Assembly: GCA_014859645.1 (NCBI GenBank) | Contig: JACUTV010000006.1 | Coordinates: forward strand, 1 to 58,213 | DNA from: Campylobacterales bacterium | Lineage (GTDB): Bacteria; Campylobacterota; Campylobacteria; Campylobacterales; Campylobacteraceae | Length of the DNA stretch: 58,213 nt | Reading direction: 5' to 3' | In this document: piece after piece, positions 53,801 through 57,263 of the stretch | Position numbering within the stretch: position 1 is the first letter of the stretch | Layout of the letters: each line of letters starts with the position of its first letter | Notes under the pieces: generated by a model | Told to the model about the DNA's origin: nothing | The model's input: only the letters and a program-made list of their open reading frames with translations | Databases searched by the model: none | Program-made: the position numbers and the translations under genes

Positions 53801-53889
53801 TTTCGCTAGGCTTTGGGTTGTTGTGGGGAACGTTTTTAAATCTTGTGTATTTGCCCACACTCTATGCTTTCGTTTCAAAAGTTAAGTAA
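50812..53889 (+). CDS. RND-family efflux transporter permease
   Basis: A 1025-residue inner-membrane pump of the AcrB/MMPL-like superfamily: an N-terminal helix, two large periplasmic loops and two sets of helices. The proton-relay aspartates are in GALIAIGVIVDDAIIVAENI. No membrane-fusion protein or outer-membrane channel is encoded beside it. This, and sequence such as YVTMPKEIFPPLALDKI, suggests the AcrB-like, possibly stand-alone, Campylobacterota type. Substrate unknown. It lies 16 bases after ftsK. Confidence 0.88.
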   Translation: MRVNLIIEFFIGRPRLNYLLFFFLILAGVVSYVTMPKEIFPPLALDKISITGFYSGASPNALDKMAVSRIEDEISNVSGIRSVESTIASGRFSMVVELEKSADKNDVLQKIKDGIARVRPDLPADMDEPNATLFAFSIPLILVNISSDTLSIDALVEIAKAFKSDLSQIENLTNLQIYGEGERVIEIVLDTRKLEAYGLSSASMATAIGRISSIFPIGKLEETGGKHAFISTYNGKEPHELLNALLRIDGKSLRLGDVATIEKHYTQTDTLSSFEGRRSLSVNVAKTEEGNAMALASKVKERVNELAMRYPGVTVGTFSDTSVYIENRLNTVVSNILFGLILVGLVMHLLVNHRISLVVIIGVPTSFIIALLFMDLGGYSINMMTLLGALIAIGVIVDDAIIVAENIQRHIEEGMAPKEAAIVGTKEVVTPVLAASFTTIFAFLPMLIMSGEMGQFIKLIPIAISVLILASLIESFIFLPIHASHLLRPKDKQVDWSRAMDVYINFVRKLIKYRKTTLFTFWILVPALIVGGFALSKFKIFPEFDGDQMNISCKLPVETTLEETHGIARALEAEVLRLKEKYFIENVTVISGFRMNAKGEGEEGTNLFHLFVDLKRAKPDNLVSKYITPILSFDLKSMDYERTFKSYDIEAQLRDELVAFMAQYETVNFEVQGPNAGVVSMPIELFVYAAQDEDAKVAIARIKRALGGIKGTNTIGDDATLGVPEIKLKVTPYGEILGIDEGTLARVLGEYFLESSQAKGFDDEGFFDVILKEKNHNSLERLRSFMLTLDSGKQVALRDVVEFVEVENYEKIFKKDGKKRWMVFSNVASDITPSEVLKELKPTLDAIASEGVVNVGFGGEKEQNDQLVREMSMASAIALFLIFVTLLVMFDSYRLAFIILSVVPFSLLGVVAGHSIMGMDLSMPSMIGALGLAGVVINDGIIMLDFIRKTTTMEALLGRAKLRLRPIVLTSITTLAGLSTLIFFPSGQAVILQPLAVSLGFGLLWGTFLNLVYLPTLYAFVSKVK

Positions 53890-53911
53890 CCTTTACATGT
53901 AAAGGTTACTT
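53884..53911. terminator. 28-bp perfect palindrome at the end of the RND gene
   Basis: The palindrome is centred on TTACATGTAA (53893-53902) and extended outward by CC/GG, A/T and more to 14 bases per arm: AAGTAACCTTTACA and its complement. It spans the RND stop codon. As an RNA it could form a long hairpin; there is no U-run, so termination is plausible but unproven. Confidence 0.55.
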
Positions 53912-54027: not shown

Positions 54028-54093
54028 GAAACCCTCGATGTGTAATTTTACTACACTACAAATGCTATTTTACAACGCAATAAAGGACAAAAT

Positions 54094-55290
54094 ATTTCAG
54101 AAAATAGGAATAAAAAGCTTATTGTAAGCAACGTTTACAAGATTTTTGGTGACCATCCTCAAAAAGCCATTAAAATGTTAAAGCAAGGTATCGATAAAGA
54201 TGAAATCTTTGAAAAGACCGGCATGAGCGTTGGCGTTAAGGATGCGAGTTTTGAGATATACGAGGGTGAAATTTTCGTTGTGATGGGCCTTTCAGGCTCG
54301 GGAAAATCCACCTTGGTACGTCTTTTGAACCGTCTTATAGAGCCCAGTTCTGGGCAGATTATTATCGATGGGGTTGACATTACTAGCCTCAAAGATAAAG
54401 ATTTAATTGAGATTCGAAGAAAAAAACTCTCCATGGTGTTCCAGTCTTTTGCACTCATGCCGCACATGAACATCATCGACAATGTCTCTTTTGGGTTAGA
54501 ATTAAGTGGTATAGATAAAACTTCGCGTTATGAGAGTGCCAGAGGCGCTTTAAAACAAGTAGGACTAGAACAATACGAAAACTCTTACCCCAGTGAGCTA
54601 AGCGGCGGCATGCAACAGCGCGTCGGTTTAGCCAGAGCGCTGGCCAATGACCCGCAAGTACTGCTGATGGATGAGGCCTTTTCTGCGCTAGACCCCTTGA
54701 TTCGCACTCAAATGCAAGATGAGCTTTTAGAATTGCAGGAAAAATCCCAACGTACAATCGTTTTTATCTCTCACGACCTAGACGAAGCCATTCGCATAGG
54801 GGACAGGATAGCAATTATGCAAGGGGGTGAGATATCGCAAATTGGAACTCCTGAAGAGATCATTGCTCATCCTGCCAACGACTATGTGCGTTCCTTCTTT
54901 CAAGGCGTTGATGTTACTTCAGTCTTAGGCGCTTCGCATATTGCCAGAAAAACCCTGCCAACGTTTATCAAAAAAGAAGGCTTTGGTATCAAATCTGCTC
55001 TTCGGTACATTGATGATTACAATAACGACTACGGCGTTTACGTCGAAAAAAACGGCAAATTTTTAGGCTTAATTACGGTGGAGTCCTTGAAAAAATCAGC
55101 CACGCTAGAAGAGGCCATTGTTGACAATAGTAGCATTCTAGATACCGTCCCTATCAAAGATTTGATTGGCACGGTGGCTGATTCGCAGTACCAAAGTGTC
55201 GTTGTTGACATAGAGGGCAAATACAAGGGAACCATTTCAAAAACAAGGCTCTTAAAAACCTTAGACGAAGGAGTCAACGATGGCGAGTGA
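54094..55290 (+). CDS. proV: Glycine betaine/proline ABC transporter ATP-binding protein, with ATT start
   Basis: The first ATG in frame is at 54175, but the frame continues upstream coding [20 protein letters not shown], the conserved ProV N-terminus. No ATG, GTG or TTG occurs in frame between the stop at 54043 and 54175. An ATT at 54094 lies 6 bases after AAAGGA, the ideal position, and gives 398 residues, the usual ProV length. Walker [10 protein letters not shown], signature [16 protein letters not shown], Walker [13 protein letters not shown] and two C-terminal CBS domains are present; CBS domains sense ionic strength in this family. Confidence 0.88.
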
Positions 55291-56290
55291 TCCATGGGGT
55301 AATGCAGCGACCGCTCAAGAAGACAGAGCGACAACTATGGATTGGTCCAAGACAACCTCTCAAGAGGCGGAACAATTCGACATCTTGCGCCCTTTTAGTG
55401 ATGAAGCCATTATCCCTTTTGGAGAATGGACCAACCAAGGAATTGACTGGACAGTAACCCATTTTAGGGATTTTTTCTTGATGACAAAGATGCCAATCGA
55501 CGTGATGTTGAAGGTTATCGAAAACTTTTTACTTTCCCTTTCTCCTTACATTGTGATGGGATTTTTTGTATTTTTAGCCCTGCAGTTTGCCACGAAAAAG
55601 CTAGCCCTTGGCACCTTTGTTTCATTTGTTATTATCGGTTTTATCGGGGCATGGGAAGCTACTATGGTGACCTTGGCATTAGTCTTGACGGCGGTTATTT
55701 TCTCGCTGCTCATTGGGTTGCCGCTAGGTATTTGGAGTGCTAAAAGCGACAGGGTGGATTCTGTGGTTCGTCCCGTGCTAGATGCCATGCAAACGACCCC
55801 TGCGTTTGTCTATTTGATACCCATTGTGATGCTTTTTGGGATTGGAAATGTGCCTGGTGTCATTGTGACGATCATCTTTGCCTTGCCGCCGCTCATTCGC
55901 CTCACAAATCTTGGCATACGCCAAGTCCCCGAAGACCTCATTGAAGCCTCGCGTTCCTTTGGGGCAAACGAACGGCAGATGCTTTTTCGCGTTCAAATAC
56001 CCGTTGCCATGCCCACCATCATGGCAGGCGTAAATCAAACCCTAATGCTAGCCCTTTCCATGGTTGTTATTGCTTCCATGATTGCTGTGGGTGGGCTTGG
56101 GCAGATGGTGCTTCGCGGGATTGGCCGTCTTGATGTGGGGTTAGCCGCGGTTGGCGGGCTTGGGATCGTGCTTTTGGCTGTCATTTTAGACAGGTTAACC
56201 CAGTCCATGGGAAAGAAAAACAAAGACGACAAGTTGCAATGGTTCCAAAAAGGACCCATTGGCTTTGTCTATAAAATAATTCAAAAATAA
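55280..56290 (+). CDS. proW: Glycine betaine/proline ABC transporter permease
   Basis: A 336-residue permease. An N-terminal extension of about 90 residues, acidic and Asn/Gln-rich, precedes the six-helix core with [21 protein letters not shown], the EAA loop [21 protein letters not shown] and [14 protein letters not shown]. Such an extension is known in ProW. Overlaps proV by 11 bases. With ProV and ProX it accumulates compatible solutes. Confidence 0.94.
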
Positions 56291-56309: not shown

Positions 56310-57263
56310 ATGAAATTTTTTACAGCAGCGCTATCGTTAGTGGTGGCAAGTTCGCTCTTTGGAGCAAAGGTGACGGCGGTTAAAACAAATATTGCCGAAG
56401 AGGGATTTCAGATGTACATTGTTGTTGAAGCGCTCAGGGCGTTGGGGCACGATGTGGAGGTTACAGAAGGCGTTGAATACCCCATCGCTTACAAAACCGT
56501 GGCACAAGAAGAGAAAAACGTTGCTTTTATGGCCGCAAGTTGGGACCCTTTGCAAAACAACATGCGAAAGGCTGTTGGGGATGAAAATCTCTTTATTGGT
56601 GGTAAATACATCGAAAATTGCGCCCAAGGGTACCTTGTGGATAAAAAAACTGCCGAGCAATACAACATCAAGTACATCAATGACCTCAAAGACCCCAAAA
56701 TCGCAAAGCTTTTTGACAGCAACGGCAATGGAAAAGCAGACCTCGCAGGATGCGCACCAGGTTGGGGATGCGAAGCGGTTATTGAGCACCAACTAGACGC
56801 TTTTGGTCTAAGAGACACCATCACGCACAACCAAGGGCAATACTCCGCCATCGTTACTGACGCGATTGCCAGATACAAAACAGGAAAGCCAATCCTTTAC
56901 TACACATGGACGCCTTACTGGGTGAGCGGTCGGCTTGTGCCTGGACAAGATGTGGTGTTTTTGCAAGTCAAAGAATCCGCCCACCCCGTGCTTGAAGATA
57001 CCGCATTGCCTAATGGCGCAAACTACGGTTTTGCTGTAAACGCCCAGCGTATTGTTGGCAACAAAAAAGTAAGCGAACACCAGGACATTGCAAAGCTTTT
57101 TTCCATCATGAAGCTCAGCGTTAACGATGTGAGTGGAGAAAACATGCTCATGACAAATGGCGAAAACAAAGAAAGAGACGTAATGCGTCACGCCAAAATG
57201 TGGGTTGAGAGCAACAAAGCCACCTTCGATAAGTGGATTGCTGAGGCTAAAGCAGCCAAGTAG
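56310..57263 (+). CDS. proX: Glycine betaine/proline-binding periplasmic protein
   Basis: A 317-residue protein with signal peptide FFTAALSLVVASSLFGA. It keeps near-diagnostic ProX blocks: ADLAGCAPGWGCEAVIEHQL with the disulfide cysteines, THNQGQYSAIV and YYTWTPYWVS, whose Trp and Tyr residues form the quaternary-amine cage. AAAAAGGAG precedes the ATG. Last gene of proVWX; a hairpin follows. Confidence 0.96.
   Translation: MKFFTAALSLVVASSLFGAKVTAVKTNIAEEGFQMYIVVEALRALGHDVEVTEGVEYPIAYKTVAQEEKNVAFMAASWDPLQNNMRKAVGDENLFIGGKYIENCAQGYLVDKKTAEQYNIKYINDLKDPKIAKLFDSNGNGKADLAGCAPGWGCEAVIEHQLDAFGLRDTITHNQGQYSAIVTDAIARYKTGKPILYYTWTPYWVSGRLVPGQDVVFLQVKESAHPVLEDTALPNGANYGFAVNAQRIVGNKKVSEHQDIAKLFSIMKLSVNDVSGENMLMTNGENKERDVMRHAKMWVESNKATFDKWIAEAKAAK

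Follow-up and report, generated by a model that had tools for sequence, protein, structure and literature searches.

The window, a stretch of 58,213 nucleotides of contig JACUTV010000006.1 from a Campylobacterales bacterium, carries proV, proW and proX one after the other as an operon (Table 1). All three products scored above their NCBIfam cut-offs, and ProV, when read from the ATT codon discussed below, matched NF007480 with 534.6 bits against a cut-off of 444, over positions 4-400 of the 400 in the profile. The close packing of proV and proW is not peculiar to the window, as 47 of 48 loci have a proW start that lies 1-23 nt upstream of the last base of the proV stop codon. Directly after the upstream gene, which codes for an RND-type transporter, there is an inverted repeat, GTAACCTTTACATGTAAAGGTTAC (53886-53911), which is probably the terminator of that gene and would separate it from proV.

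Table 1. Features of the proV region, with coordinates in the window.
Feature	Position	Strand	Remarks
Palindrome TGTAATTTTACTACA (TGTA-N7-TACA), probable operator of the proV promoter	54041..54055		motif in 21/39 non-canonical loci
In-frame stop TAA upstream of proV	54043..54045	+	such a stop at most 6 codons before the start in 20/39 loci
Out-of-frame ATG reading frame overlapping the proV start	54062..54127	+	conserved in G000 and G001; rejected as source of the N-terminus
Shine-Dalgarno AAAGGA (core AAGGA 54083-54087)	54082..54087	+	6 nt before ATT
ATT start codon of proV	54094..54096	+	ATT/ATC/ATA/GTC in 39 loci; codon periodicity begins directly after
proV, glycine betaine/proline ABC transporter ATPase, 398 aa from ATT	54094..55290	+	NF007480, 534.6 bits
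First in-frame ATG; start for NTG-only gene finders (371 aa)	54175..54177	+	no SD; loses the conserved VxNVYKIFG segment
proW, permease	55280..56290	+	ATG overlaps the proV end by 11 nt; NF008196, 496.5 bits
proX, substrate-binding protein	56310..57263	+	NF008334, 399.1 bits

A first-pass annotation, made from the letters of the window, had claimed that no ATG, GTG or TTG occurs in the proV frame back to the preceding stop, and this is true of the whole span from the TAA at 54043-54045 to the ATG at 54175. By a rough estimate, an NTG-free span of 43 codons would arise by chance in about 10-15% of cases, and it is not remarkable alone. The start region reads AAA GGA CAA AAT ATT TCA GAA AAT AGG AAT AAA AAG CTT ATT GTA AGC AAC GTT TAC AAG ATT TTT GGT, with the ATT at 54094-54096 placed 6 nt after the AAAGGA at 54082-54087; the first ATG follows 27 codons downstream, in the same frame. 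When translated from this ATT, the N-terminus of ProV could be aligned from residue 8 onward with ProV-type ATPases of solved structure (PDB 7ahc), and in both this alignment and that with NF007480 the conserved N-terminus was seen to precede the first ATG, as had been supposed. The warning that automatic annotation would cost the protein 27 residues is likewise supported, as the ATG at 54175 gives 371 aa instead of 398. We took the ATT of the window to be a real start because of homology and conservation, and not because of the absence of NTG codons alone.

Relatives were gathered by searches at the level of the order, of two sister families and of the phylum, and by one scan of named genomes, which together gave 48 non-redundant Campylobacterales proV loci; where neighboring candidates existed, the start codon was picked by hand via the spacing from the Shine-Dalgarno sequence (SD). 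The start place was occupied by ATT in 21 loci, ATC in 15, ATA in 2, GTC in 1 and ATG in 9. Thus, 39 of the 48 loci, from 16 coded genera, have a non-canonical start, among them by name Sulfurospirillum arcachonense, species of Arcobacter, Poseidonibacter and Halarcobacter, and uncultured Sulfurovum. The nine ATG loci were limited to two genera (g31 and g82). Outside the phylum, ATG was found at the matching place in 63 of 63 proV matches (Vibrio, Motiliproteus, Ectothiorhodospiraceae, Spirochaetes, Bacteroidota and others). An alignment with sister species had been proposed as a way of finding an ATG at the place of 54094; in the relatives aligned, ATT stood there instead: the sequence was GGA TAA ATT ATT TCA in the sister species G001 (97% amino acid identity), GGA TAA AAT ATT TCG in G152, from another genus (84%), and TAAGGAGAAAGT ATT AAG AAA in G136, from a third genus (58%). 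Because of the stop two codons before the ATT in G001 and G152, an upstream in-frame start is impossible there. The single GTC start belongs to L049 (genome G501), and its two sister sequences, L050 and L155, have ATC. Genomes G552 and G553 carry two proV copies each, and both copy types read (L153/L154 and L157) have ATC.

Differences per codon position were then counted in 158 pairs of relatives. They were flat over the 15 codons upstream (0.59/0.61/0.60), became periodic over the 22 codons after the ATH codon (0.20/0.13/0.40) and remained so in the rest of proV (0.12/0.04/0.40). The lack of periodicity before the codon and its clear presence right after show that coding begins at the ATH codon. 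We consider it very improbable that the real start is the ATG further downstream, at 54175 in the window, with the conserved stretch before it as an untranslated leader. Most loci do have an in-frame ATG 24-27 codons downstream, and a protein started there still exceeds the NF007480 cut-off (500 bits). However, the 22 codons in between show the coding signature just described, and a SD match of at least 4 nt was found before the ATH codon in 37/39 loci and before the next downstream ATG in 1/39, with a match of 3 nt at best in the other 38. The SD before the ATH codon is an ordinary one, with a match of 4-5 nt in 28/39 loci. Moreover, the first downstream NTG in L039, L044 and L065 comes only at codon 43, and the VxNVYKIFG segment, which would be lost from the downstream ATG, is present in the solved homologues. 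We take this segment to carry the first strand and the A-loop aromatic residue of ABC ATPases.

It is more improbable still that the out-of-frame ATG at 54062 initiates and that a -1 frameshift then leads into the proV frame. The frame at 54062-54127 is present both in the window and in the sister species G001, but no SD precedes it. Past the ATT, G000 (the genome of the window) and G001 differ by GAA/GAG and AAT/AAC, exchanges that leave the ProV residues as they are and alter residues in the other frame. A crossing NTG frame was absent in 27/39 loci, and a programmed -1 frameshift, which would require a conserved overlapping upstream frame, was rejected on that count. An in-frame upstream NTG was absent in 24/39, and in 15 loci no NTG could supply the N-terminus, either in frame or via a crossing out-of-frame frame; the earlier idea of an upstream frameshift that links proV to a normal start is therefore rejected for the family. 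An in-frame ATG at -12, within ATGGAG, could initiate in six loci; ATGGAG is in frame in these six and out of frame in four, so that the ATG seems to be a side effect of the SD, and we rejected it as the start. Finally, a sequencing or assembly error or a one-off mutation in the window's strain, two readings that the first-pass annotation had also offered, is supported solely by the assembly being a draft (249 contigs) and is refuted, with next to no probability left, since 39 non-redundant loci from independent genomes of 16 genera carry the same kind of codon (ATT/ATC/ATA/GTC) there. We conclude, from the comparison of sequences, that translation of proV starts at a conserved ATT/ATC across a Campylobacterales clade. 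The start codon is well supported: the codon itself, its SD, its conservation and the onset of coding, like the overlap of proV with proW, can be read off the DNA, and homology, the SD, conservation in 39 loci and coding onset all back the ATT at 54094, 6 nt after AAAGGA, that was first proposed.

As a control, about 158 ORF pairs, some of them antisense frames, were sampled between G000 and G001. Of these, 23 were flagged, most having a SD before the first ATG, and three SD-poor or odd flagged frames that were inspected proved to be antisense frames. No second clear gene without a SD-preceded NTG start was found in the approximately 158 sampled pairs, a few flagged frames being undecided. At least in its own genome, then, proV is unusual.

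We propose that the AUU at 54094, placed by the AAGGA SD, is read by the ordinary initiator tRNA as fMet to give the 398-residue ProV, and that AUU or AUC, rarely AUA or GUC, has been kept across the Campylobacterales as a weak start. By discriminating against initiation complexes that lack AUG, GUG or UUG pairing, IF3 would allow few proteins to be made per proV mRNA. Since the proW start lies within the 3' end of proV, translational coupling probably extends the brake to the permease. The osmolyte pump would be scarce except when its transcription is strongly induced or initiation becomes less faithful. We infer low yield and dependence on IF3, by analogy with the S. aureus and Streptomyces starts described below, as well as coupling and a physiological purpose. 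A built-in translational brake on ProV and, via the overlapping proW start, on the transporter is likely, and it is probably enforced by IF3; the earlier suggestion that the start could throttle the transporter fits the conservation. As one explanation, the AUU start, the brake on ProV via IF3 and the coupled limit on ProW seem to us together the probable account.

The brake would differ from IF3 autoregulation. In the same genomes, infC starts with TTG in 27 of 30 loci of family f9, and two of the other three also have TTG on separate reading; infC of the window's own genome starts with TTG as well. An autoregulatory loop of the infC type was rejected for proV, as the product is ProV and not IF3, and infC itself has TTG. 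The classical AUU-IF3 feedback is accordingly missing from these genomes, and to ascribe control of proV to IF3 is to extrapolate. The TTG of infC is itself conserved (L159-L188, L190 and L192-L195, from Arcobacter-type families and the window genome), and in most f9 loci it lies two codons after the stop that ends the upstream frame.

In the phylogenetic tree, 38 of the non-canonical sequences, all but G136, formed one clade (support 100/99), and G136, with ATT, was the sister of the ATG subclade (100/98). Parsimony requires two switches between ATG and non-ATG starts: the non-ATG start was gained twice, or was gained once and reverted once. The third start base among the 38 is T in 20, C in 16, A in 2 and G in none; it changed 11 times, which is the neutral rate, as the 59 fourfold sites average 11.8 changes. 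A pyrimidine is found in 36/38, against 51% at the fourfold sites, where C makes up 8%. G occurs at least once at 49 of the 59 fourfold sites and is absent from 10; a neutral site would lack G with odds of about 1 in 6, and the absence of G is weak evidence taken singly. The wobble base is free among the non-G letters, with a pyrimidine preferred, and selection against ATG at the proV start is suggested, not proven. That the third base drifts between T, C and A as fast as neutral sites do also speaks for a start that is real but merely tolerated, the output of ProV being good enough without a regulated response or IF3-dependent control. So do the TTG of infC and the lack of any standout RNA structure in the leader that could hide the start, as folding energies were like those of shuffles (z -0.85 to 0.82). 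However, ATG was never regained among the 38 clade sequences although it is one mutation away, and the pyrimidine bias also argues against mere tolerance, which we hold to be unlikely, if not implausible. There is a rather slim chance that, through the AUH start, synthesis of the osmolyte pump directly reports the fidelity of initiation. If this were true, osmotic shock would alter the ionic state or IF3 activity, non-AUG initiation would rise and ProV would be made at once; start-codon discrimination would be part of an osmotic switch, without IF3 autoregulation.

The translational brake, which we prefer, may be joined by control of transcription. The TGTA-N7-TACA palindrome was found within 160 nt upstream of 21 of the 39 non-canonical loci (for example, L035, L047 and L074), where 0.43 were expected from first-order shuffles, and in none of the nine ATG-start loci. 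Lying near the probable transcription start of proV, it is probably an operator of the proV promoter. Transcriptional control and a weak start could together give a tightly off, inducible pump.

To our knowledge, very few non-NTG starts are known in bacteria, and fewer still are kept across many genera. The start of proV adds a transporter operon, in a phylum without a described case in the literature searched; that literature, with most subscription papers outside our reach, held no report of an AUU start in proV or in Arcobacter. We expect annotations of Arcobacter, Sulfurospirillum and their relatives to give proV either too short or lengthened to a spurious ATG. With an ATG-using sister subclade, genomes with two copies and ATT, ATC, ATA and GTC variants, proV also offers a natural test of why weak starts persist.

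The infC gene, for IF3, starts with AUU, AUC or AUA in E. coli and others. Like that of proV, this AUH start follows a good SD and has been retained in many species; the infC product, however, is IF3, and the start closes a feedback loop, whereas the product of proV is a transporter ATPase. The AUU start of pcnB in E. coli is reported to limit translation of a gene other than that of IF3 (Binns and Masters, 2002, cited in PMC13009471). It resembles proV in having AUU on a non-IF3 gene, and differs in being another gene in another phylum. The GTC start of Streptomyces sigR is repressed by IF3 and mis-annotated in all available genomes (PMC5472188). It is, as in proV, a clade-wide non-canonical start on the first gene of an operon, and L049 proV also has GTC; sigR, however, codes for a sigma factor for which the balance with its anti-sigma factor is important, whereas the effect of the proV start is a predicted one. 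In S. aureus, the AUU of cvfC1 and the AUA of ccpN are conserved and were found by ribosome profiling; in poor medium they give about 10% of what AUG gives, a level stated for three genes of this species (PMC13009471). Both ccpN and cvfC1 share a conserved AUH with proV, but they have extended SDs and proV an ordinary one. The AUU start of pncA/BBE22 in Borrelia burgdorferi was, like that of proV, missed by annotation, which truncated the protein by about 24 residues (PMC13398362), but this is a single plasmid gene. The conserved non-canonical start of proV is thus a new case by gene and phylum, of a kind known from infC, pcnB, sigR, ccpN and cvfC1.
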